IMG/VR virus record: IMGVR_UViG_3300027791_001659
Span: 1 to 39,523 of that record
Strand: one strand, 5' to 3'
Length of the DNA stretch: 39,523 bases
Source of the DNA: a virus
Part shown: in pieces, positions 1 through 39,394 of the stretch
Numbering within the stretch: position 1 is the first letter of the stretch
Layout of the letters: each line of letters starts with the position of its first letter
Made by a program: the position numbers and the translations under genes
Notes under the pieces: generated by a model
What the model was told of the DNA's origin: nothing
Databases searched by the model: none
The model's input: the letters and a program-made list of their open reading frames with translations, nothing else

Positions 1-592
1 AGTCGCCATCTTGTGTTATTGATAGTATATTATTATCACCAGTAATCGGTGCACCGGTAATCCCTCCAACAGCATTGTTGTCTCCGTCTTGATCTACAAC
101 AAAAGTATTGTCATCACCATTTGCTTCCATACCAGCCGCATTGTAGTTGCCGTCTTGTGTAATTGTACCAGTGTTATCGTAATCACCGCCGTTACCAAAC
201 TCTAAATTTGCTGAGTTGTTGTTACCATTTTGTGTAATGGTTGTCGAACAGTTGTTGCCGTGACAGTCTGACACAGCATAGTTAGTATTACCTGTTTGTG
301 TAATTGTCTGCTGTCCATTGCCAGCACTCATATACACTCCTATATCATTGTTATCGCCTGTTTGTGTAAACGTTGTGCTTGTGTTATTACCGGAGATTGT
401 GGCTTTAGTGGTGTTACCAGTAAGTGAACTAATAACATTATTCTCACCATCTTGAACAATAGTCATGTCAATGTTATTACCAGCCTGGTTGATGTAAATC
501 TCGTTAGCCATACAAGTCTGCGCCGCAAAGTACATTACTAATATTAATATTCCTAAGTGTGTTCCTGTTATTTTATTTTTGAATGATATCAA
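1..592 (-). CDS. Curlin-repeat (CsgA-like) secreted protein, 3' end outside window
   Basis: The frame stays open from the left edge to a TTG start at 592-590. GGGAG lies 8 nt upstream of that TTG, and the start overlaps the 3' end of the FecR gene by 20 nt. The N-terminus is a clear Sec signal peptide (MISFKNKITG then GILILVMYFAA). The mature part opens NEIYINQAGNN and then repeats the curlin pattern Q-x-G-x-x-N: ITQTGNTN, ITQNGNNN, ITQDGNYN, VDQDGDNN, ITQDGD. In CsgA such repeats stack into an amyloid beta-solenoid. One Cys pair sits in SDCHGNNCST. It is the last visible gene of the csgF-csgG-curlin-fecR operon and is the probable substrate of the CsgG pore. The family call is firm; exported fibre or adhesin function is inferred. 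Confidence 0.85.
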   Translation of the reverse strand, partial: MISFKNKITGTHLGILILVMYFAAQTCMANEIYINQAGNNIDMTIVQDGENNVISSLTGNTTKATISGNNTSTTFTQTGDNNDIGVYMSAGNGQQTITQTGNTNYAVSDCHGNNCSTTITQNGNNNSANLEFGNGGDYDNTGTITQDGNYNAAGMEANGDDNTFVVDQDGDNNAVGGITGAPITGDNNILSITQDGD

Positions 593-1685
593 TTTCGTTG
601 CTCCCGTCACCTAGTTGAAATTCTCTAAATTCAAAATCTGATTGTTGTAGATTAATGTTATAACCATTTTGTTGATCTAATAATAGTTCAACTGTCATGC
701 CTGTGCCACTGTCTCTTTTAAATAACCAACTTGGTGTTTGGTTGTAAATTTCAATTCCTGTTACTGGATCTTTTCCGTAAGTAAGTTTTCCAGACTTTTG
801 ATTCAATGCTCCACTTAACACCATTGCTAACATTTCGTTAAGTTGATCAAGTACGTTTGCTAAAAAGTTTTGATCTAAATAGTTCATGTCTAAGCCTGTT
901 TGCCAAATGTCTGTAGTTTGTTCATCTAGATAGTTAATATCCAATCCGTCAAATTCTAAATAATCAAATCCTAAAAAGTCTGCTAAGTCTTTGGCTCTTT
1001 CTATTTCTAGTTCTAGTTTAAGTGCTTTGGGCTTACGTATGATTAACAAGTTATCTATCAATCGTTCATTAATGTCAATAATAATCGGCTTCAAAGGGTT
1101 ACTCTTAGGTGTGTCTACAACAGTTGCTTGGAACGCTTGATTAAGTATTACCGTGCCAATGTCTGATGTTACTTCAATTTCGCCTACCACGCATATACGC
1201 TTTACTCCAATTGCAGAACAACTTGGAAGTAAGACAATAGTTGAAGAACCAGTTTCGTCTACTGTCATAGTAAAGTCTGTTCCACGAACACCAATACTAG
1301 CTGTCGGTGTTGAAATCTTTATGTCTTGCCTGCTGTTTTTAGCAATTTGTCCTGAGGCGTAACGTATAGTTCCGAATGATGCTTTTAATGCTAGTTTACC
1401 TGTTGAAGTAACTGGATCATACACAAACTCATCAATTATTAGTTTACTGTTTTGTGTTACATCAACTCGAGTTTCATCTAGAAACTGAATAGCAGTCTTA
1501 CCTTGGCCTGTCTTGATAGTGTCATAACTTACTACATCACTACCTTTTTGTGCTTTCAGTGATTCGCCAGCCTTTCTCTCAATAATAGTGTTACCAACTT
1601 GTTGAGTTACTGAACCAATACTATCAGCAGCAGCCCTCGCTGGAGAGATCACAATTATACATAAGAAAACCCAACGTAACAACAT
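573..1685 (-). CDS. FecR-domain periplasmic/secreted protein
   Basis: 370 aa. A Sec signal peptide (LLRWVFLCIIVISPARA) is followed by DSIGSVTQQVGN and a FecR domain at about residues 50-150: KAQKGSDVVSYDTIKTG, TAIQFLDETRVDV, TPTASIGVRGTDF. The C-terminal half is unassigned and holds two similar segments (LDINYLDEQ and LDMNYLDQN). The ATG overlaps the stop of the upstream curlin gene as TAATG, so translation is probably coupled. FecR domains occur both in anti-sigma sensors and in secreted surface proteins. There is no transmembrane segment beyond the signal peptide and no sigma factor nearby, so a surface or periplasmic partner of the curlin proteins is more likely than FecR-type signalling. 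Confidence 0.8.
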   Translation of the reverse strand: MLLRWVFLCIIVISPARAAADSIGSVTQQVGNTIIERKAGESLKAQKGSDVVSYDTIKTGQGKTAIQFLDETRVDVTQNSKLIIDEFVYDPVTSTGKLALKASFGTIRYASGQIAKNSRQDIKISTPTASIGVRGTDFTMTVDETGSSTIVLLPSCSAIGVKRICVVGEIEVTSDIGTVILNQAFQATVVDTPKSNPLKPIIIDINERLIDNLLIIRKPKALKLELEIERAKDLADFLGFDYLEFDGLDINYLDEQTTDIWQTGLDMNYLDQNFLANVLDQLNEMLAMVLSGALNQKSGKLTYGKDPVTGIEIYNQTPSWLFKRDSGTGMTVELLLDQQNGYNINLQQSDFEFREFQLGDGSNEIDIIQK

Positions 1686-2455
1686 TAGTCAGTCTGCGTA
1701 ATGTCTATAGTTGCATCGTTGCCAACAGTCGTTAAACTAATAGTTTTATCTTCAACCCCTGTTTGCGTAATGTTTACTATACTACCACCACCCTTCTGAT
1801 TAAAAAGTAAACTATGTCCGTTAATATCACCAGCTCCTGACTGTGTAACGTTTACAGTATTAGCAACTCCACTTTCTACTGAGGATGCAGTGTTTGTAGT
1901 ACCACCTATTCCTACTCCAGTAAGTGCAGTTGAACCATCGTTGCTTAAATCGTAATCCATGTCGCCATTTGCAGCTTCAAGGATAAAGATAAAAGTATCT
2001 TGGTTACTTGCGTTCGCAATATCAATAGTACCTACATAGTTAGCAGCATCGTTATTATCACCAATGGTTGCTGTTAGGTCAACTGAACTACCAGTTACAT
2101 CAATACTTAAACTTACAGTTTCACAGTTGGTTCCACCAGTGCTATCACAGTCCAAATCAACTGTGTTGCTGTTACCAACTAGATTAATGTTACCCGTATA
2201 TGTATTACCATTGATCTGAGTTTTGATTATATTAGTATCTCCTTGTTGTACCACGGAGAAGGTCATGTTGTTTCCTGCAAGGATCACTCCTTGTGTAGTT
2301 GTACCAAGTATGTTATTAGTACCATCTTGTGTTACGTCTAGATCTAGATCGTTACCTGACTGTTGAATGTATATGTCATTCGCGAACACCGGCAGAGTTC
2401 CTAATCCAAAACCAAACATTAAAAGACTACTTGCTAGTAGGGTCTTTATTTTCAT
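1685..2455 (-). CDS. Curlin-repeat (CsgA-like) secreted protein
   Basis: 256 aa from the ATG at 2455. That start has AAGGGAG 5 nt upstream and opens MKIKTLLASSLLMFGFGLG, a signal peptide ending ...PVFA; the in-frame ATG 18 nt earlier has no comparable SD. The mature protein starts NDIYIQQSGNDLDLDVTQDG, nearly the same opening as the neighbouring curlin gene. It carries Gln/Asn/Gly repeats such as VTQDGTNN, VVQQGDTN, VTQSGAGD, ITQTGVED, ITQTD. A Cys pair occurs in DCDSTGGTNCET. The start lies inside the end of csgG, indicating coupled translation. Probable amyloid-type subunit or nucleator exported through CsgG; which of the two curlin genes is major or nucleating cannot be told. Confidence 0.85.
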   Translation of the reverse strand: MKIKTLLASSLLMFGFGLGTLPVFANDIYIQQSGNDLDLDVTQDGTNNILGTTTQGVILAGNNMTFSVVQQGDTNIIKTQINGNTYTGNINLVGNSNTVDLDCDSTGGTNCETVSLSIDVTGSSVDLTATIGDNNDAANYVGTIDIANASNQDTFIFILEAANGDMDYDLSNDGSTALTGVGIGGTTNTASSVESGVANTVNVTQSGAGDINGHSLLFNQKGGGSIVNITQTGVEDKTISLTTVGNDATIDITQTD

Positions 2456-3455
2456 TTTCGCTCCCTTGTCCAATCATAGTGGACAATTGTTTAATTTTCG
2501 GGTCATCATGCCAACACATGTCATCTTTATTACAATAGTAATCTGTTACGCCTGGAAATGCTAGTTTAAATTCCGGTTCTGGTAATTTAATTATTGCATC
2601 ACTGCGTTGATCTACTGTAGGTTTTGATGTCGGTATTGTCATCTCTACTTCTACGTTCTCTTTCACGAAGTCCCAAAGTTTTTGTTTTCTTCCTTTGTTA
2701 ATCAATTCGACTATTGCAGCTTCTATCGCTGTTCTAACTGCATAATTAGTCGGTTCATTTACTGCTGCGCCTATTTCTACTTCTAGTGCCTTTGTGCCCA
2801 TATCTAAGAAACGAAATACATCGCCTCCACTACTATAACTTGCGATCTTTTTCTCAGTTGCAACAGTTAAAAGTATCTCTCCTGTTTGCGTACTAATGAT
2901 TCGCATTGCTACAGTGACTTGGTCCGTTCTATAACTAGTTTGCCCGCCAATGCCAAAGTATCTAGCACCTGCTCCTCCGCTTTCAATATTAGAATCATAC
3001 CCAACTACTGCACCTTCTAATAACAAACCTGCAAACGTCATTGGCTTAAGATCTGTAGGATTTGTTTCATAAACTTCTCTAGTACTTCTTATCAACTGTC
3101 TTTCTTTTACTAGATTATCTAAACCTACACGCTCTACTACTGTAAACCAAGTTCCTCCACCTACTTCTTTCAAAGCATTAATAACCCAAACTTCTGATCC
3201 TTGTGTAACCGCACTGCTAAGTTGGCTAAAAGAATCGTTTGGCTTACGTTGCCCTGTTTTATCTATGAAACTATAAACAGCTATAGTGATCTTCGGCCCA
3301 TCAATTGGTGGAACCGTGTCAAGAACACTTTGGTACGGGCTAACTGCTGCAACGGGTGCAGACCAGTCTTGTTTAGTATAGGTTGCAGCACAACCTTGTA
3401 ATGCTATGCCAAACAATAGTACCAATATATTTTTAAACATAACATTCTTGATCAA
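2427..3455 (-). CDS. csgG: CsgG-family curli secretion channel lipoprotein
   Basis: 342 aa. CsgG forms the outer-membrane nonameric pore that exports curli subunits. The N-terminus is a lipoprotein signal with lipobox LQGC (Cys about residue 22). Family blocks follow: ITIAVYSFIDKTGQRK, GSEVWVINAL, WFTVVERVGLDNLVKERQ, AGLLLEGAVVGYDSNIESGG, ARYFGIGG, TGEILLTVATEKKI and VFRFLD. The longer start is a TTG at 3455 that overlaps the csgF stop as TTGA with AAGGA upstream; an ATG at 3440 is the alternative. Compared with E. coli CsgG (277 aa) there is a C-terminal extension of about 50 residues. CsgG homologues are known from other marine T4-like phages, where a role in pore formation or lysis has been proposed. 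Confidence 0.93.
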   Translation of the reverse strand: MIKNVMFKNILVLLFGIALQGCAATYTKQDWSAPVAAVSPYQSVLDTVPPIDGPKITIAVYSFIDKTGQRKPNDSFSQLSSAVTQGSEVWVINALKEVGGGTWFTVVERVGLDNLVKERQLIRSTREVYETNPTDLKPMTFAGLLLEGAVVGYDSNIESGGAGARYFGIGGQTSYRTDQVTVAMRIISTQTGEILLTVATEKKIASYSSGGDVFRFLDMGTKALEVEIGAAVNEPTNYAVRTAIEAAIVELINKGRKQKLWDFVKENVEVEMTIPTSKPTVDQRSDAIIKLPEPEFKLAFPGVTDYYCNKDDMCWHDDPKIKQLSTMIGQGSENENKDPTSK

Positions 3456-3910
3456 AATCCAAATCCTTGTAGTGGTACCGTTATGGTTGTAACACTGCCG
3501 TCTTCTTCAGTAATTGTAATAGAGATAGTATCAGCTGATACATCCTTGAGCCAGTATATAGTGGCCCCTTCTATTTCGGCAGTGCCAGATAATGCACCAT
3601 TGTCAGCGAACATATTATCAACCATCTGCTTGGATAATTGTGCATATATTCTTGACTCAACGTTGTTAAGAAACTTAGCCAAGTTAGTTGACTCTGCTTC
3701 TCTTTTCGCTTTGGCTGCATCGGCGTCCGCTTGTTCCTTAATATCTTGTTTACGTGTGAACTGTAACTGTTCAATACTAAGTACATGGGTTGAATAACCT
3801 AGGCCACTAAAAGAGGGATTTTTAAATGTGAAGACTTCGTCACCGCCATGTGCGGCAGATGCTGTCGCCAACACACCTAAAAGAAATATTTTAAATATAC
3901 CTTGTTTCAT
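3452..3910 (-). CDS. csgF: CsgF-family curli assembly factor
   Basis: 152 aa, first gene of the curli operon. A signal peptide (MKQGIFKIFLLGVLATASAA) is followed by the mature N-terminus GGDEVFTFKNPSFSG. This matches the CsgF segment F-x-F-x-N-P-x-F-x-G that plugs into the CsgG pore and makes a second constriction. The middle is a charged helix (EQADADAAKAKREAE) and the C-terminus is beta-rich. GGAG lies 6 nt before the ATG. A candidate late promoter GATAAATA lies 75 nt upstream. csgF directly precedes csgG with overlapping stop and start. No CsgE gene is visible in the window. Confidence 0.88.
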   Translation of the reverse strand: MKQGIFKIFLLGVLATASAAHGGDEVFTFKNPSFSGLGYSTHVLSIEQLQFTRKQDIKEQADADAAKAKREAESTNLAKFLNNVESRIYAQLSKQMVDNMFADNGALSGTAEIEGATIYWLKDVSADTISITITEEDGSVTTITVPLQGFGF

Positions 3911-4333: not shown

Positions 4334-5428
4334 CTATTCTTGAGGACGGCTTGTAGTCTCAATATGTGTTTGAGGATAAATGTTCCTATACTCGCCACTA
4401 ATTGGATACGCTGTACTTGAGTGCAATCTTAGCCCGCCTTTATTAAGCGAAGCATTATCAGTAAAGAAGATTAATGTATAAGGATTTTTCGTTAAATCAA
4501 TCATTAAGATACCTACATCTTCTACTTTAACATTAATATAATTTTCTAAGTTTGCTACAGCATAACGCTGTTTTGCTTGACCGGTATTGCCCATCATAAT
4601 TGCATCAACTATTGGGCCTGCTGCATTTGGTAACGCTGGAAAGATTTCTTTCATTACAGGAGTAAGTAGCTGTTTCATCTTTTGCTTAGACTCTGGTGGT
4701 ATAGCTGAGGCTAATTTAATTAATCCTGCAATACTAATTCCTGTACCTGATTCAACTTTTTGTTCTTTAATTTCAACATCGAATGTTTTCTTAAAAAAGT
4801 TTGCAGCTGGAACATAGTTTGATGTAGGTTTAACTTGTTGATCATGGAAACGTCCTGCTCCACCTTCTCTAGTTTTTACTTCAACACTGCCAACGCCTTC
4901 AATATTTAAATCACCTTTGCCTGCTTTGCCAATCTTCTTACTAAACACTGAAAGTAGGAACTCACCTTTACCTTGCCCTAAGAACGAGATCTGAGCAAGA
5001 TCGTCTGTCATTTCTTTAATAGCAGGGTTAGCGTTATATCCAACAATAATATCTTCAACAGTGTGGGCGCCTGGTGTTACAAGTTTTTTAACATCAACTA
5101 ACTGATCATTCTTCCAAGCAGTTAACATTGCTTGTTTATCTTTAGGATCAGCTTCTAAACTCATAAAGTATTTTGCTAAGAGCTTTTGTGCTTTGTTTAC
5201 TTCAGCATCAGCAATTGTTGCCAGCGACTGTTTAACCATTTCTACACGACTACCAGCACCAATGCTTTGCAGCAGTTCTTCAATTTCTTGTAAGACTTTT
5301 TGTGTTTGTGGATCAGTAGGAAGTTCTTTAATCTTACTTGCCAAGCTGGATTTAAGATTTTCAAGATCTGGACTATCTCGCAGATCTTCGCTATCAGTAA
5401 CTTCAATTAAAAATTCAAATGCTCTCAT
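4334..5428 (-). CDS. Candidate internal head protein with PD-(D/E)XK-like motif
   Basis: 364 aa from ATG 5428; the longer frame has an unrelated N-terminus lying inside the bilin reductase gene. The start MRAFEFLIEVTDSED resembles other N-termini in this window (MRAFEITTEA, MRIFEFEGTD) and the T4 capsid-targeting sequence type (MKTYQEFIAEA). Residues about 170-215 contain GKGEFLLSVFSKK, KGDLNIEGVGSVEVKTREGG and GRFHDQQ; the spacing D-x(8)-E-V-K fits a PD-(D/E)XK nuclease core. An N-terminal coiled coil is likely (residues 20-60). I cannot assign a family with confidence. It may be a nuclease-like protein packaged in the head. Confidence 0.6.
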   Translation of the reverse strand: MRAFEFLIEVTDSEDLRDSPDLENLKSSLASKIKELPTDPQTQKVLQEIEELLQSIGAGSRVEMVKQSLATIADAEVNKAQKLLAKYFMSLEADPKDKQAMLTAWKNDQLVDVKKLVTPGAHTVEDIIVGYNANPAIKEMTDDLAQISFLGQGKGEFLLSVFSKKIGKAGKGDLNIEGVGSVEVKTREGGAGRFHDQQVKPTSNYVPAANFFKKTFDVEIKEQKVESGTGISIAGLIKLASAIPPESKQKMKQLLTPVMKEIFPALPNAAGPIVDAIMMGNTGQAKQRYAVANLENYINVKVEDVGILMIDLTKNPYTLIFFTDNASLNKGGLRLHSSTAYPISGEYRNIYPQTHIETTSRPQE

Positions 5429-5436
5429 ACTATTAT

Positions 5437-6132
5437 TTATCCTAGTTTTGGAAATAACATATCTGTGCAAAACTTGTCTACATCAGCTTCGTTAAGACCT
5501 AGGCTTTTCATAGTACGTGGTGTGTGGGGATTTTGTTGCTGGTTGTGACAATAATAGTTTTGGCATCCTGCTGTAATGGCTGGATCTGCATAGCCTGTAA
5601 ACTCTTTAATTTCAGAAAAATATGCACGTAGGTTATCTAATGCTAGATCAACAATTGCAGTTGCTTCTTCTTCACTAGCAACGTTACCAGCAGCGATCAT
5701 ACTGTCAGTAAAAATATTTGTAGCCCATTCAGGCAATGCACGTTTTTTGCTAGGAATAAATTCTGCTACTGCTTCTTTGTAGCCTTCTATCATAGGATGG
5801 TCTTCACCGCCACTACTAGCACTAAAGTCATGGAATGCACCAGTCATCTTACGCTTACCTGAAATAACATCAAAGCCGTATATAGGACCGTCATTAGTTA
5901 GTACAGGAAACACACATACATGCATCATCCACAAGCCTTTAGACTCACGAGCATCTACTACATCAATATGCGCTCTACGCACATGATCGTTTTTCCAAAC
6001 TCTGTTAACCCAAGTGTCGTTGTTAAAGTGTGCTAATCCTGGCTCGTCAAACTCTACAGCGTTCTCATTAAATATATTAATAATTTCATTCTTACAATCG
6101 ATTAAACGATCCCAAATTACACTTTCACTCAC
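5437..6132 (-). CDS. Ferredoxin-dependent bilin reductase (PcyA/PcyX/PebS family)
   Basis: 231 aa. FDBRs reduce biliverdin IXalpha to phycobilins with electrons from ferredoxin. Family blocks: HIDVVDARESKGLWMMHVCV, FPVLTNDGPIYGFDVISGKR, MTGAFHDFS, and the C-terminal QNYYCHNQQQNPHTPRTMKS followed by ADVDKF and LF. His71 and Asp88 are 17 residues apart, exactly as PcyA His88 and Asp105. Cyanophage PebS lacks that His, so this is closer to PcyA/PcyX; PcyX from uncultured oceanic phages makes phycoerythrobilin from biliverdin. The GTG start overlaps the heme oxygenase stop in GTGAGTGA, so the two enzymes are translationally coupled. The exact product (PEB, PCB or other) cannot be read from the sequence. 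Confidence 0.88.
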   Translation of the reverse strand: MSESVIWDRLIDCKNEIINIFNENAVEFDEPGLAHFNNDTWVNRVWKNDHVRRAHIDVVDARESKGLWMMHVCVFPVLTNDGPIYGFDVISGKRKMTGAFHDFSASSGGEDHPMIEGYKEAVAEFIPSKKRALPEWATNIFTDSMIAAGNVASEEEATAIVDLALDNLRAYFSEIKEFTGYADPAITAGCQNYYCHNQQQNPHTPRTMKSLGLNEADVDKFCTDMLFPKLG

Positions 6133-6670
6133 CCTTTTTATGCTCCATCAATTCTTTGAATAGTTCAGTGGCAAAATCAAAACATACCTTAGCTTCGTCT
6201 GCCATGTTGTCGTTACATTTAGCTCTAATCTTTTCTTTATAATCGTTAATGTCACAATCAAATTTATACATGTTGCCTTCACCTGGTACACGTTTAGCAA
6301 TCATTTGACCGCCACTCAGGTCGCCCATGTGTCTAACATAGATGTGTGCCATAAGTCTATTTGGATCATTCATGATCTCTTTTAGATACATCACATACTT
6401 GTGAGTTGTTTTAAGTGTTGGAGGACGATCTTCGTGTTTCCAAAGCTCTAAGAAGTCTGCCATAATAGCTTTAGACCTTATTAGTTGTGGTACATCGTCA
6501 AACAAACTATGTTGTTGGCCCATAAGTTCTAATAGCTCGTATGCTGGAAATTGATTCCACAAATACAATGCATAAAACTCAGGTTCAATGTTTCCACCGA
6601 ACATAACTTTTACAAATTCTTGTCGTTCAGCGTTAGTGTGATTTTCTTTTGTTAGTTCTTTTAAGCTCAT
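6125..6670 (-). CDS. Heme oxygenase (biliverdin-forming)
   Basis: 181 aa, normal length for a bacterial heme oxygenase. It opens heme with O2 and electrons to biliverdin, CO and Fe2+. Proximal His11 lies in KENHTNAERQEFV. The distal helix has MAHIYVRHMGDLSGGQMI, with the conserved G116-D-x-x-G-G-Q that contacts the heme. GAGGTG lies 4 nt before the ATG. It starts 35 nt after clpS and overlaps the bilin reductase downstream, so its product biliverdin has a dedicated next enzyme. Heme oxygenases paired with bilin reductases are known in cyanophages and in some uncultured marine phages. Confidence 0.95.
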   Translation of the reverse strand: MSLKELTKENHTNAERQEFVKVMFGGNIEPEFYALYLWNQFPAYELLELMGQQHSLFDDVPQLIRSKAIMADFLELWKHEDRPPTLKTTHKYVMYLKEIMNDPNRLMAHIYVRHMGDLSGGQMIAKRVPGEGNMYKFDCDINDYKEKIRAKCNDNMADEAKVCFDFATELFKELMEHKKGE

Positions 6671-17054: not shown

Positions 17055-17139
17055 TGGAGTGAGCGACAGGACTCGAACCTGCATGCCTTTCGGACTGATG
17101 GATTTGCAATCCACTGCGTAACCATTCCGCCACGCTCAC
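17055..17139 (-). tRNA. tRNA-Cys (GCA), with enlarged variable arm
   Basis: Acceptor GTGAGCG / CGCTCAC, discriminator U73 and encoded CCA; anticodon loop TTGCAAA gives GCA. U73 plus GCA are the main CysRS identity elements. The variable region is CAGTCCGAAAGGCAT (15 nt, can form CC-GAAA-GG), whereas tRNA-Cys normally has a short one of 4-5 nt. Length 85 nt with CCA. Last of six tRNAs in the array. Confidence 0.93.
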
Positions 17140-17143
17140 ATAT

Positions 17144-17219
17144 TGGCTGGGGTGGTAGGATTCGAACCTACACTCGTCCGGATCAAAACCGGATGCATTA
17201 CCAATTATGCTACACCCCA
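17144..17219 (-). tRNA. tRNA-Gln (TTG)
   Basis: Acceptor TGGGGTG / CACCCCA, discriminator G, encoded CCA; anticodon loop TTTTGAT gives TTG. 76 nt. Confidence 0.97.
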
Positions 17220-17223
17220 ATAT

Positions 17224-17311
17224 TGGCGGAGAGTGTGAGATTCGAACTCACGGAACCTTTCGGTTCTCTGGTTTTCAAAACCAGTGCAATCGGCCACTCT
17301 GCCAACTCTCC
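17224..17311 (-). tRNA. tRNA-Ser (TGA)
   Basis: Acceptor GGAGAGT / ACTCTCC, discriminator G, encoded CCA; anticodon loop TTTGAAA gives TGA; long variable arm GAACCGAAAGGTTC as expected for Ser. 88 nt. Confidence 0.97.
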
Positions 17312-17316
17312 TAACT

Positions 17317-17394
17317 TGGTCTCGATGGTAGGATTCGAACCTACGACCCCTCCGCCCCAAACGGAGTGCTCTAACCAGACTGAGCTACATCGAG
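17317..17394 (-). tRNA. tRNA-Pro (TGG)
   Basis: Acceptor CTCGATG / CATCGAG, discriminator A, encoded CCA; anticodon loop TTTGGGG gives TGG. 78 nt. Confidence 0.97.
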
Positions 17395-17399
17395 TTAAC

Positions 17400-17481
17400 T
17401 GGTGCAGAGTGTAGGAGTCGAACCTACTATGCGTTAGCGTCGGATTTACAGTCCGATGTCCCACCGTGGAACCTACTCTGC
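17400..17481 (-). tRNA. tRNA-Tyr (GTA)
   Basis: Acceptor GCAGAGT / ACTCTGC, discriminator A, encoded CCA; anticodon loop CTGTAAA gives GTA; class II variable arm CGCTAACGCA. 82 nt. Confidence 0.97.
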
Positions 17482-17487
17482 TTAAAT

Positions 17488-17562
17488 TGGCATAGATGCT
17501 CAGATTCGAACTGAGAGCTGGTGGTTTGGAATCACCCGTGTTGCCATTAACACTACACCTAT
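17488..17562 (-). tRNA. tRNA-Trp (CCA)
   Basis: Acceptor ATAGGTG / CATCTAT, discriminator G, encoded CCA; anticodon loop TTCCAAA gives CCA. The last anticodon-stem pair is an A-C mismatch. First tRNA of the array; its 5' end is 9 nt after the U-run of the upstream terminator. 75 nt. Confidence 0.95.
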
Positions 17563-17571
17563 ATAAACTTC

Positions 17572-17609
17572 AAAAAAAAAGCCCCTAACACTATTTGTGC
17601 TAAGGGCTT
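17572..17609 (-). terminator. Intrinsic terminator / candidate attenuator before the tRNA array
   Basis: Minus-strand RNA: AGCCCUUAGCAC-AAAUA-GUGUUAGGGGCU, 12 continuous pairs (with G-U), then U9. It stands between a leader ORF and tRNA-Trp, so it would stop transcription before the tRNA array unless prevented. Its 5' arm AAGCCCUU can instead pair with AGGGGUUU at 17654-17647. Confidence 0.92.
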
Positions 17610-17639
17610 ATAAAAATATCACTTTGTTAAAAAGTCACA

Positions 17640-17702
17640 TCAAGACAAACCCCTCCCTGTCGGTGGGCACCAATAAAATGATTGTTGTGCTGTCTTGTGC
17701 AT
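17640..17702 (-). CDS. Candidate 20-aa leader peptide controlling the tRNA array
   Basis: ATG 17702 to TGA 17640, peptide MHKTAQQSFYWCPPTGRGLS. AGGA lies 6 nt before the ATG and a sigma70 promoter starts the transcript about 30 nt upstream. Residues 6-14 (Q-Q-S-F-Y-W-C-P-P) use codons CAA CAA TCA TTT TAT TGG TGC CCA CCG. All six tRNAs of the downstream array (Trp, Tyr, Pro, Ser, Gln, Cys) read codons in this stretch; only Phe has no tRNA in the array. Codons 16-19 contain AGGGGTTT, which can pair with the terminator 5' arm. The arrangement is that of amino-acid operon attenuators such as trp and his. Translation and function are inferred. Confidence 0.75.
   Translation of the reverse strand: MHKTAQQSFYWCPPTGRGLS
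17647..17654 (-). promoter_or_regulatory. Candidate antiterminator segment
   Basis: Minus-strand AGGGGUUU (extendable to AGGGGUUUGU) can pair with (AU)AAGCCCUU at 17611-17602, the 5' arm of the terminator: 8-10 continuous pairs including G-U. It starts 13 nt beyond the first base of the TGC codon of the leader ORF, so a ribosome stalled on the Gln-to-Cys codons would leave it free, while one at the stop codon would cover it. Confidence 0.55.
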
Positions 17703-17739
17703 TGTAATTCCTGTTGTTCTATTATTTAATGTATAACTT

Positions 17740-17768
17740 AATATACAGTGTTATTTAGTATCTGTCAA
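17740..17768 (-). promoter_or_regulatory. Sigma70 promoter of the leader/tRNA array
   Basis: Minus strand TTGACA (17768-17763), 17 nt, TATATT (17745-17740). It lies between tRNA-Gly and the leader ORF. The spacer shares TACTAAATA with the plus-strand promoter at 36252. Confidence 0.82.
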
Positions 17769-17869: not shown

Positions 17870-17871
17870 AG

Positions 17872-18219
17872 CGTAACTTTTCTGTTGCCAGGTAAGTTAC
17901 CAACCCCTACGTGCTTAGTTAGACTAAGCCGCTAATGCCATTCCTGGCGCTGTATTTGCGTTTGCATTTACAAAGTTTGTTCGCGGTAACGGCGCTTACA
18001 TCCCGGTAACTCCACTAACTCTATTAACTACCAGTCGATCCTAGTTCGCCCCCATCATAAACACTCTAGCCTGCGTATCCGACCACGATAATCTACGATT
18101 CGGCCTAAGGGACACAATGTTTAAGATACCGTTCCTAAGTATCACTAGAGTGCTTATGGTGGAGGCGTCGGGTACTGCCCCCGAGTCCTGTATAGCGTTT
18201 AAATTGCTTCAACGTTACG
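17872..18219 (-). ncRNA. ssrA: Two-piece (circularly permuted) tmRNA
   Basis: Gene order is acceptor piece first, coding piece second, as in alphaproteobacteria. Acceptor piece 18219-18157: T-arm-like TCGGG-GGCAGTA-CCCGA (18184-18168), then CGCCTCC, A and CCA. Coding piece from about 18053: GGGGGCG pairs with CGCCTCC, followed by AACTAGGATCGACTGG. The tag ORF (17965-17924) encodes ANANTAPGMALAA and a TAG stop, ending in the ALAA degron; UAAAU precedes the resume codon GCA. A hairpin GCUUAGU-CUA-ACUAAGC spans the stop. The 5' end CGUAACGUUG can pair with GUUACG and CAAC at the 3' end, holding the pieces together. It would rescue stalled ribosomes and tag peptides. Confidence 0.92.
18057..18157 (-). 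other. tmRNA intervening segment with processing stem
   Basis: The ends, ATAAGCACTCTAG (18157-18145) and CTAGAGTGTTTAT (18069-18057), pair over 13 bp with one G-U. This stem would hold the acceptor CCA end next to the start of the coding piece, as expected for a precursor cut by RNases into two RNAs. Confidence 0.75.
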
Positions 18220-18223
18220 ATAG

Positions 18224-18231
18224 TATTTATA
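18224..18231 (-). promoter_or_regulatory. Late promoter of tmRNA
   Basis: Minus strand TATAAATA, the full T4 late consensus. Predicted start about 18218, matching the 5' end of the acceptor piece. A sigma70-like TTGACT-N18-TAGTAT (18260-18231) overlaps it, so both early and late expression are possible. Confidence 0.75.
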
Positions 18232-18261
18232 TACTAACATCAAGCGAGCAACAAGTCAAGA

Positions 18262-18283
18262 AAAAAGGGCCGAAGCCCTTTTT
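18262..18283 (-). terminator. Intrinsic terminator after the cold-shock gene
   Basis: AAAAAGGGC-UUCG-GCCCUUUUUU on the minus-strand RNA: UUCG tetraloop and U-run, 17 nt after the stop at 18301. Confidence 0.95.
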
Positions 18284-36801: not shown

Positions 36802-37587
36802 ATGTTTGATGAATATAGTCAATGGTTCCAGTCATTACAAGATACGATTTGTAATACAATAGAAGATTTAGATTGCAATATGACTAGCCACAAAGGCTCG
36901 TCTAAAAAAGAGTGGGATCAATTTCACAGAACAATCTACGGTGATGTGTTTGAAAAAGGCACTGTTAACTTCAGTAAGGTTACTTCGGAGTTTGATCCTA
37001 AGTTTGCAAAAGAGATTCCAGGTACAGAAGAACACAACAGATATAGTGCCACAGGTATTAGTGTTGTATTACACCCATGGAACCCTCATGCTCCTGCTAT
37101 GCATTTTAACACTCGTTACTTAAAGACATCAACTAAAGAATGGTTTGGTGGTGGGATGGATGTTACTCCTTGTATGCCATTTGACAAAGAATCATATCAT
37201 GCAAGTCTAAAACAAATGTGCGATATGCATAACAGTGATTACTATCCTAAGTTTAGTAAAGCATGTGATGAGTATTTCTACTTGCCACACCGCAACGAAA
37301 CTAGAGGTGTAGGTGGTATCTTCTTTGAGTATCATGATCCAAAGGATATGGACTTTAATTTTGTTAAAGATGTAGGACGAACATTCAACTCGTTGATCAG
37401 AAGTATCATTACTCCTACAATAAATATGGACTATACAAGTAGAGACAGACAAATACTAGAACGGAAACGTGGCCGCTACGTAGAGTTTAACTTACTTTAT
37501 GATCGTGGAACTAGATTTGGATTTAAAACAGGTGGAAACATGGAAGCAATACTAATGAGTTTACCGCCTAGTGTAAGGTGGGATTGA
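36802..37587 (+). CDS. hemF: Oxygen-dependent coproporphyrinogen III oxidase
   Basis: 261 aa (bacterial HemF about 300). Converts coproporphyrinogen III to protoporphyrinogen IX with O2. Blocks: YGDVFEKGTVNFSKV, YSATGISVVLHPWNPHAPAM, HFNTRYLKT, WFGGGMDVTPC, ETRGVGGIFFEYHDP, RGRYVEFNLLYDRGTRFGFK, TGGNMEAILMSLPPSVRW. These include the conserved His residues (L-H-P-x-N-P-x-A-P-x-x-H) and R-G-R-Y-V-E-F-N-L-L-Y-D-R-G. AAGGA 6 nt upstream. First gene of an overlapping hemF-hemC-hemE operon. Confidence 0.96.
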   Translation: MFDEYSQWFQSLQDTICNTIEDLDCNMTSHKGSSKKEWDQFHRTIYGDVFEKGTVNFSKVTSEFDPKFAKEIPGTEEHNRYSATGISVVLHPWNPHAPAMHFNTRYLKTSTKEWFGGGMDVTPCMPFDKESYHASLKQMCDMHNSDYYPKFSKACDEYFYLPHRNETRGVGGIFFEYHDPKDMDFNFVKDVGRTFNSLIRSIITPTINMDYTSRDRQILERKRGRYVEFNLLYDRGTRFGFKTGGNMEAILMSLPPSVRWD

Positions 37588-38423
37588 TGAGAATTGGTGT
37601 AAGAGGAAGTGACCTGGCATTGGCTTATGCTAGTGCAGCAACGATGATCTTAGAGCACAAGTCATTTATTGATGTAGAGATAGTTGTAATTAAAACAGAT
37701 GGTGACATACATCAAGATGTGCCTATTCATGAGATAGGCGGCAAAGCTGTATTTTGTAGTGCAATTGAAACTGCATTACTTAACGGAGATATAGATGTTG
37801 CTGTGCATAGTCTAAAAGATATGCCAGCAGATGTTGAAGTGGCTGAACTAGAAATAAGCGCAGTACTAGAACGCAGAGATCCAAGAGATTGTGTTATAGG
37901 TAACATGGGCATTAATGCAAAAGTAGGCACTGGTAGCCCACGAAGAGCCGCTCAATTAAAAATATTAAATCCGTACATACAAGTTTCTCCTATTAGAGGA
38001 AACATTGATACTCGCATTGCTAAATTAGATGCTGGGGAGTATGATGCGATTATTCTTGCTGTTTCAGGATTAGAAACACTTGGACTTGAACATCGCATCA
38101 ACAAGATATTTAATATTGATGAAATGCTGCCTGCAATCGGGCAAGGAGTGATTGCTTTACAAACTGTAAAAGACTCAGAAGCAAGTCAAATAATAAAAAC
38201 AAAGAATCACTTAGATACTTACTATGCTGCAATGGCAGAACGTAGAATGTTAAAAGTTATTGATGGTGATTGCCATACTGCAATTGGTTGTATTTCTAGT
38301 GTTGTAGGCGACTGTATTATGTTACAAGCACACAACTACGAAACAGGAAAGCACGGTTCAGTTATTGGAAAGAAACTTGACTATCTTAAATTAGGAGAGT
38401 CATTAGGAGTAAAACTTATATGA
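37587..38423 (+). CDS. hemC: Hydroxymethylbilane synthase (porphobilinogen deaminase)
   Basis: 278 aa from ATG 37587 (overlaps the hemF stop as TGATG). Polymerises four porphobilinogens to hydroxymethylbilane. MRIGVRGSDLALAYASAATM is the family start. Asp78 in HSLKDMP corresponds to the catalytic Asp84 of E. coli; GSPRRAAQL and RGNIDTRIAKL are substrate-binding; Cys229 in DGDCHTAIG corresponds to Cys242 that carries the dipyrromethane cofactor. About 30 residues shorter than E. coli HemC. All key residues are present, so it should be active. Confidence 0.96.
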   Translation: MRIGVRGSDLALAYASAATMILEHKSFIDVEIVVIKTDGDIHQDVPIHEIGGKAVFCSAIETALLNGDIDVAVHSLKDMPADVEVAELEISAVLERRDPRDCVIGNMGINAKVGTGSPRRAAQLKILNPYIQVSPIRGNIDTRIAKLDAGEYDAIILAVSGLETLGLEHRINKIFNIDEMLPAIGQGVIALQTVKDSEASQIIKTKNHLDTYYAAMAERRMLKVIDGDCHTAIGCISSVVGDCIMLQAHNYETGKHGSVIGKKLDYLKLGESLGVKLI

Positions 38424-39394
38424 ATAAACTATTTGAAAATGCCTGCAATAGAGTAGAGCAACCTGTACCTCCAATTTGGATGATGCGGCAGGCCGGACGA
38501 TATCAAAAAGGTTACATGGAAATGAAAGAACAGTTTACATTTGAACAAATGTGTAAACTTCCACAAGTTGCAGCTAAGGTTGCAATGCTACCAATTAATC
38601 AATTTGATTTTGACATTGCAATACTGTTTAGTGACATACTTTTCCCTATTGAAGGGTTAGGTGTTCCTCTAAAGTTTAATCCAGGTCCAAAGTTTGAATG
38701 GCTAATTACAGAAGAAAATTATAAAGACCACATGGATGTTGACGCTGCTATTAAACACATGGTGTTTCAAAGTCGTGCTATTACTGCAACACTAGAAGCA
38801 CTACCTAAAAATAAAAGTCTTATTGGGTTTGTAGGAGGTCCTTGGACACTGTTAAACTATGCAACTGGCAAACAAAAAACAAGCACTAAGTTTAAAGTAG
38901 AATACTTACACAAAGTTCTTGTTCCTTTGCTCAATCGTAATATACATTTACAGTTAGCAGCTGGTGCCGAAAAAGTTATGATACTTGATAGCGGAGTAGG
39001 TAACATGAGTGAAAAGTTCTTTAAGGATCACTATAAAGAATTACTACAGCCTATGGTAGGCGAGCATGTAGGATATTACACACAGCATTTAAATACTAAA
39101 TGTATGCCTAGTTTACTTAAAATGGGTTGGAAAGGAATTGGTGTTGATAGCACTGTTGATATTTCAAAAACTATGAACAAGTATAAAGACGGATTTGTGC
39201 AAGGCAACTTTGACGAGCAACTATTACTTCTACCTTATTTAGAATGCAAAGAACAGATTCGTTTGTTTTTAAGTAAAATGGATACAGTTGATCGTACAGG
39301 ATGGGTATGTGGCCTCGGGCATGGTATTAATAAACTCACGCCCGAAGCTCATGTTGAACTGTTTGTTGATATGGTTAGATCACACTACAGTTAA
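38420..39394 (+). CDS. hemE: Uroporphyrinogen decarboxylase
   Basis: 324 aa. Decarboxylates uroporphyrinogen III to coproporphyrinogen III. PPIWMMRQAGRYQKGYMEMK holds the conserved Arg residues (R23, R27); Asp72 in ILFSDILFPIEGLG is the catalytic Asp; GFVGGPWTLLNYATG holds the conserved Tyr; the end CGLGHGINKLTPEAHVELFV holds the His. ATGA overlap with hemC. It acts before HemF in the pathway and after HemC plus HemD; no hemD is seen. Confidence 0.96.
   Translation: MNKLFENACNRVEQPVPPIWMMRQAGRYQKGYMEMKEQFTFEQMCKLPQVAAKVAMLPINQFDFDIAILFSDILFPIEGLGVPLKFNPGPKFEWLITEENYKDHMDVDAAIKHMVFQSRAITATLEALPKNKSLIGFVGGPWTLLNYATGKQKTSTKFKVEYLHKVLVPLLNRNIHLQLAAGAEKVMILDSGVGNMSEKFFKDHYKELLQPMVGEHVGYYTQHLNTKCMPSLLKMGWKGIGVDSTVDISKTMNKYKDGFVQGNFDEQLLLLPYLECKEQIRLFLSKMDTVDRTGWVCGLGHGINKLTPEAHVELFVDMVRSHYS

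Follow-up and report, generated by a model that had tools for sequence, protein, structure and literature searches.

A leader peptide and attenuator predicted to control a phage tRNA operon

We describe a tRNA operon in a 39.5-kb viral contig (the window, that is, the whole stretch of DNA analysed) that is very probably controlled by a ribosome-mediated transcription attenuator acting through a multivalent leader peptide; translation of the leader, ribosome stalling, read-through and feedback are inferred. Established at the level of sequence are the parts, their conservation, the co-variation of leader codons with downstream tRNAs, the covariation of the terminator and the co-changing complementarity of the antiterminator. 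The mechanism is of a known kind; what is new is its cargo (tRNA genes), its carrier (phages), its breadth of up to nine tRNAs and the co-evolution of codons with cargo. Ribosome-mediated attenuators combine a short ORF whose codons are regulatory, RNA structures 1:2, 2:3 and 3:4 that exclude one another, an intrinsic terminator, and read-through that depends on stalling (PMC1183508). The phage locus meets the corresponding attenuator criteria, namely a leader ORF with a Shine-Dalgarno site and a conserved frame, codons cognate to the products, an intervening terminator and an alternative antiterminator, with the reservation that translation has not been shown.

The locus and its genomic surroundings

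On the minus strand of the window, a sigma70-type promoter, a Shine-Dalgarno site, a 20-codon leader ORF, an intrinsic terminator ending in U9 and six tRNA genes follow one another (Table 1), all at the positions given in a preliminary description made from the letters alone, as confirmed by inspection of the sequence and by ARAGORN. That description had assigned the terminator a 12-bp stem; the strong stem and the U9 tract hold, but folding gives 13 bp (−19.8 kcal/mol). A spacer of 9 nt separates the U9 tract from tRNA-Trp. Each of the six array tRNAs has one or more codons among leader codons 6–14: the anticodons UUG, UGA, GUA, CCA, GCA and UGG read codons of the QQSFYWCPP run, in which Phe alone lacks a tRNA in the window array. 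In the relatives inspected for it, TTGACA and then a TATA-like box occupy the place that the promoter has in the window, and an AGGA/AAGGAA-like site precedes nearly all leaders of the relatives.

Table 1. Positions of the leader, RNA elements and tRNA genes in the window
Feature	Position	Strand	Basis
Sigma70-type promoter: TTGACA 17768-17763, 17-nt spacer, TATATT 17745-17740	17740..17768	-	sequence
Shine-Dalgarno CAGGA (AGGA), 6 nt 5' of ATG 17702	17709..17713	-	sequence
Leader peptide ORF MHKTAQQSFYWCPPTGRGLS, 20 codons, UGA stop	17640..17702	-	intact in-frame ORF in family members
Protector helix 5' strand, leader codons 2-4, CACAAGACA	17691..17699	-	pairs with UGUCUUG 17647-17641
Control codons CAA CAA TCA TTT TAT TGG TGC CCA CCG (QQSFYWCPP), leader codons 6-14	17661..17687	-	sequence, tRNA calls, stall-position model
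Pivotal Trp codon of leader	17672-17670	-	stall-position model
Region 2 (AGGGGUUUGUCUUGA), predicted to pair with leader start (protector) or region 3 (antiterminator)	17640..17654	-	folding
A+U-rich hairpin immediately 3' of the stop codon, separating region 2 from region 3	17616..17640	-	predicted in family
Region 3, terminator 5' arm and antiterminator 3' strand (AAGCCCUU)	17597..17609	-	folding, alignment, distant members
Region 4, terminator 3' arm	17579..17591	-	alignment pairing
U9 tract of intrinsic terminator	17572-17580	-	sequence
tRNA-Trp(CCA), first array gene	17488..17562	-	ARAGORN, Rfam
tRNA-Tyr(GUA)	17400..17481	-	ARAGORN, Rfam
tRNA-Pro(UGG)	17317..17394	-	ARAGORN, Rfam
tRNA-Ser(UGA)	17224..17311	-	ARAGORN, Rfam
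tRNA-Gln(UUG)	17144..17219	-	ARAGORN, Rfam
tRNA-Cys(GCA), last array gene	17055..17139	-	ARAGORN, Rfam

The window carries genes of T4-like marine phages, and its host is unknown. Its peroxiredoxin has its closest annotated match in Phage C48C1 (62.9%); cyanophages and Pelagibacter phage HTVC008M follow at 50–59%. A permuted tmRNA of alphaproteobacterial type (17870-18270, minus strand; Rfam RF01849, 127 bits) lies directly upstream of a tRNA-Gly gene, and its tag, read by eye, is ANANTAPGMALAA; two-piece tmRNAs are already known from marine phages (PMC9004378). The contig also combines a heme oxygenase gene with genes for coproporphyrinogen oxidase, porphobilinogen deaminase and uroporphyrinogen decarboxylase (6125-6670, minus strand; 36802-39394, plus strand), and at 573-3910 (minus strand) a CsgG-like curli pore gene has as neighbours genes for a repeat-rich protein that looks secreted and for a FecR-domain protein.

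Leader codons and downstream tRNAs across the family

Related loci obtained through neighbouring proteins together with a leader pattern comprised close copies and one diverged member, L082, with the leader MFKSNTTNINRWPPTGGMS and an array of Trp and Pro, joined by Ser in one contig. A DNA pattern built from the leader end and the post-stop sequence, which can match without a start or Trp codon, gave 75 stretches. Nearly all matches with a tRNA 60–200 nt downstream had a short intact ORF and tRNA-Trp first (the tRNA-Trp of L213 was missed by ARAGORN and is visible in the sequence), and matches in viral contigs without a tRNA nearby had no leader ORF. Further patterns brought in variants with other leader endings, and arrays truncated at a locus end were completed from the record if it reached far enough. 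After collapsing, the sample comprised 53 distinct leader/array pairs from IMG/VR phage contigs. The Trp codon is present in frame 0 in 53/53 leaders and in the other frames in 0/53 and 3/53, and tRNA-Trp heads the array across the 53 pairs, several arrays consisting of tRNA-Trp alone; on the strength of the relatives and this frame control we rejected a chance ORF.

Among the loci examined, 61 of 162 distinct arrays have an upstream terminator and 57 of these 61 belong to the leader family; the other four terminators are not of the attenuator kind, and no similar leaders were found ahead of other tRNA arrays in these loci. Homologous loci with the same tRNA set but without the ORF had been named beforehand as evidence that would refute the attenuator. 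The ORF is intact throughout the family. Some relatives do lack the attenuator: in L086, whose neighbouring gene is 90% identical, a promoter leads straight into a single tRNA-Trp gene (5800-5914), with neither leader nor terminator. Searches by DNA or peptide found no convincing relatives among sequenced phage isolates. L250 was rejected as a chance pattern match, and the 43 leader-pattern matches in genome contigs, none with a tRNA downstream, were likewise due to chance.

Two further observations concern the stretch between leader and array in some relatives. A conserved, apparently structured element of approximately 90 nt (..GCCUUACUGCAAUAAGGU..UGCAGAGACAGAGG..) lies between the terminator and tRNA-Trp in L223 (3368-3460); similar elements occur in L246, L193, L197, L207, L210, L214, L220, L230 and L244, the window lacks it, and it matched no Rfam family at threshold. 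In L220, a partial copy of the tRNA-Trp 5' half directly precedes the intact tRNA-Trp. This copy, located on the minus strand about 200 nt past the leader (near 5173), may be a relic of recombination by which tRNA genes are exchanged.

The preliminary description had proposed, as its own test, that relatives should keep codons matching whichever tRNAs follow, and this is what we found. Across the 53 pairs, 84 of the 94 non-Trp array tRNAs have a readable codon in leader codons 2 to W+3, compared with 58.8 ± 3.1 matches (maximum 70 in 5000) when arrays were shuffled among leaders. No signal appeared in the tail codons (12/94 versus 10.9 expected) or out of frame, where frames +1 and +2 gave 26 and 24 matches against 30.0 and 21.8 expected. 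Ten tRNAs are unmatched, mostly distal Glu and Arg, and these distal Glu and Arg genes may belong to other transcripts. When leaders were joined in a minimum spanning tree and neighbours differed in both a tRNA and its codon, the codon sat on the tRNA-bearing side in 26 cases and on the other side in none (p=1.5e-8, edges treated as independent). Thus VYITYW in L335 (Trp) corresponds to VHITYW in L381 (Trp, His), a Y to H change with the gain of tRNA-His; SIICW in L239 (Trp Pro Cys Ser Ile) corresponds to SIIGW in L180 (Trp Pro Gly Ser CAU Ile), where G replaces C in the leader and Gly replaces Cys in the array; and ILGW in L207 (Trp CAU Gly) corresponds to ILNW in L195 (Trp CAU). The CWRR of L251 uses CGC CGC ahead of an array of Trp Arg Cys, an added AGC codon accompanies tRNA-Ser(GCU) in L388, and ACA in the window corresponds to AUA in L088 alongside a CAU tRNA.

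AUA codons accompany CAU or UAU tRNAs in 10/10 cases, compared with 5/43 otherwise (p=1.5e-7), which suggests, on codon content alone, that the CAU tRNAs of the arrays are tRNA-Ile2. The CAU tRNAs, called Met by ARAGORN, occur with leader AUA codons in 8/8 cases (L088, L180, L195, L207, L210, L253, L318 and L383), and that of L253 has a long variable arm. Their isotype by similarity to E. coli tRNAs was ambiguous.

A covariance model built from 47 aligned leaders, with terminator and hairpin pairs, and run on whole records recovered additional leaders, which had escaped the exact patterns and did not enter the 53-pair counts. In the seven of these with arrays beyond Trp, 20 of 21 tRNAs were matched, compared with 11.8 ± 1.7 (p=5e-5) when training leaders were substituted for the later-found ones. 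The leader of L401 (MMNTIQIISYIWCPTYGRGLS) has four AUA codons ahead of Trp, Tyr, Pro, Cys and Ile(UAU), and that of L413 (MNTKYTNNYEWCGCEPPGGVL) precedes Trp, Cys and Glu. The leader of L412 (MTTMMKHIQQYCIRWFSEGRSVS) holds a codon for each member of its nine-tRNA array (Trp, Ile, Lys, Gln, Cys, CAU (Met), Arg, Phe and His); for the CAU tRNA these are AUG codons, scored as a miss under the AUA rule. Array ends in this set were picked by hand (a distal tRNA-Arg behind a 135-nt gap in L405 was excluded, the distal tRNA-Glu of L413 counted), and the model holds consensus leader letters, which leaves the Cys and Pro codons only partly independent of it and the His, Lys, Phe, Arg and Glu codons fully so. 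Weak model matches in L402 and L403 were rejected.

The constancy of the Trp codon, the leading position of tRNA-Trp and the arrays of tRNA-Trp alone, together with the place of Trp at the edge of the modelled antitermination window (below), would also fit an attenuator that senses only tryptophan or the supply of tRNA-Trp, the other matching codons being coincidental. We consider this unlikely: the association of non-Trp codons with tRNAs is strong, in frame, confined to the control region and reproduced in the later-found members, and the L412 leader has codons for all nine of its tRNAs. Since Trp is the one invariant element, the multivalent leader is a Trp-headed attenuator to which other codons have been added. 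Judged from the sequences, the coupling is one-way, from tRNA to codon and not back, because L088/L177, whose array holds Trp, CAU and Pro tRNAs alone, still has codons for Gln, Ser, Tyr and Cys; many leaders likewise retain codons for tRNAs absent from the array.

Leaders and arrays are linked and move together, and phage tRNAs may match general phage codon use, so shared codon bias or joint inheritance could in principle produce the matches without regulation. Such an origin is very improbable, as the signal is retained under permutation restricted to within clusters (p=2e-4) and in the nearest-relative comparisons and is absent from tail codons and other frames. It also persists with one representative for each of 13 clusters; at the level of three clusters the test has no power.

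RNA structures and the proposed mechanism

In the aligned family, terminator pairs form in 96.3% of cells, with two-sided changes in 5 of 11 pairs, and all measures for the terminator-plus-hairpin structure exceeded 500 shuffles. The A+U-rich hairpin itself is paired in 94.7% of cells and almost invariant, with no covariation. Folding agrees with the earlier claim that AGGGGUUUGUCUU pairs with the terminator 5' arm AAGCCCUU. This 2:3 antiterminator is paired in 90.7% of cells and nearly invariant in the main family, within which no antiterminator covariation above shuffles was detected. Of the two elements whose co-variation had been asked about beforehand, only the terminator shows it in the main family; for the antiterminator, support comes from the distant L412 and L413, in which both strands have changed and complementarity is kept (permutation over nine leaders, p=0.002). 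The L412 strand pairs at −20.1 kcal/mol with its own partner versus −5.1 to −12.2 with others, and that of L413 at −19.2 versus −9.4 to −17.6.

An additional protector helix, not part of the preliminary description, pairs the leader start (codons 1–4) with the stop-codon region in most close relatives. Its predicted energy is −11.8 kcal/mol versus −4.3 for shuffles, and 47/47 aligned sequences beat their shuffles; L323 alters both strands in a compensatory manner, and the helix was not seen in the distant L401, L412 and L413. In L408, and also in L409, AUG has become GUG and UGA has become UAA together with the protector pairs kept, and the leader lies about 60–135 nt upstream of tRNA-Trp.

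A stalled ribosome had been proposed to free the antiterminator, and folding with a ribosome footprint moved codon by codon agreed: 2:3 pairing remains possible as long as the A site has not passed the Trp codon, falls at W+1/W+2 and is gone from W+3 onward, in a model and not by measurement. The codons that track the tRNAs lie in or next to this modelled stall window, and the tail codons are uncoupled. The unloaded state depends on the kinetics of co-transcriptional folding, because the modelled ribosome-free fold also allows 2:3 before region 4 is made.

On these grounds we propose that RNA polymerase would start at the promoter and a ribosome would translate the leader. If a charged tRNA for one of the control codons were short, the ribosome would stall at or before the Trp codon, region 2 would be free to pair with region 3, the 3:4 terminator would be blocked and the tRNAs would be transcribed. 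With good supply, the ribosome would reach the UGA and cover region 2, the 3:4 terminator would form and the tRNA genes would stay off; with no ribosome loaded, the helix between the start and stop regions would probably favour termination in most close relatives. The operon would thus close a negative feedback loop on tRNA supply, because its tRNAs read its own control codons. Gains of tRNA genes would be accompanied by gains of codons in the leader, and we hold with good confidence that the leader is a self-updating, multivalent sensor of tRNA supply, in which every tRNA of the operon has its codon and each gained tRNA gene brings a matching one.

The Trp and then Pro residues, and an ending Gly-(Met/Leu)-Ser-UGA conserved in much of the family, recall a TnaC-like leader, in which the peptide and its stop codon stall the ribosome on a ligand such as free tryptophan. 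A conserved arrest peptide at the stop codon, the criterion for that type, is not met: the ending varies (GTS, GMF, RMS, RALS), L323 and L327 use another frame there and L408/L409 stop at UAA, and what conservation the ending has is accounted for by its pairing with the leader start and region 3. We regard arrest of this kind as barely tenable. It is equally hard to sustain that the terminator merely ends transcription of the genes, tmRNA and tRNA-Gly that lie upstream in the same direction as the array, with a spurious short ORF, given that a promoter separates them from the leader, that frame, Trp codon and codon/tRNA matching are conserved, and that the other terminators before arrays (4/61) differ in kind.

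Relation to known regulators and implications

The proposed attenuator shares its geometry with those of amino-acid operons (trpL, hisL, pheA, thr, ilvGMEDA), but it is carried by phages and controls tRNA genes instead of biosynthetic enzymes, senses up to nine tRNA species with codons that follow the downstream cargo, and usually has single rather than tandem codons per tRNA. The E. coli pheST attenuator likewise regulates a component of translation through a leader peptide, but its cargo is a synthetase and it senses one amino acid. In B. subtilis rtp/anti-TRAP, the level of charged tRNA-Trp is likewise read out by Trp codons in a leader peptide, but what is controlled there is translation of a protein-coding gene instead of a tRNA operon. 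T-box riboswitches also choose between terminator and antiterminator by tRNA charging, but they do so by direct binding of the uncharged tRNA, with no requirement for a translated leader; no T-box matched the window at the Rfam gathering threshold. On the relative L223, the Rfam Trp_leader and His_leader models stayed below threshold (12.6 versus 41 bits and 19.8 versus 49 bits). In line with the preliminary description, which knew of no case for a phage tRNA array, we found no description of or precedent for attenuation of phage tRNA genes in the open-access literature searched, subscription papers being outside the search.

The purpose of phage tRNA genes has been debated for more than 50 years, between codon compensation and the replacement of tRNAs destroyed by the host (PMC10264068). 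An attenuator bearing codons for its operon's own tRNAs would mean that at least some phages measure and answer tRNA shortage during infection, and would make the role of these genes directly testable. If confirmed, this would be the first time that attenuation is seen to govern tRNA genes, and the first case in a phage tRNA array; ribosome-mediated attenuation would then extend to viruses and to genes for non-coding RNA. Through it the phage could respond when anticodon nucleases of the host destroy tRNAs. The leader may also reveal how a phage tRNA decodes, as where CAU tRNAs accompany AUA codons, and the family would present a sensor that evolves together with its cargo.
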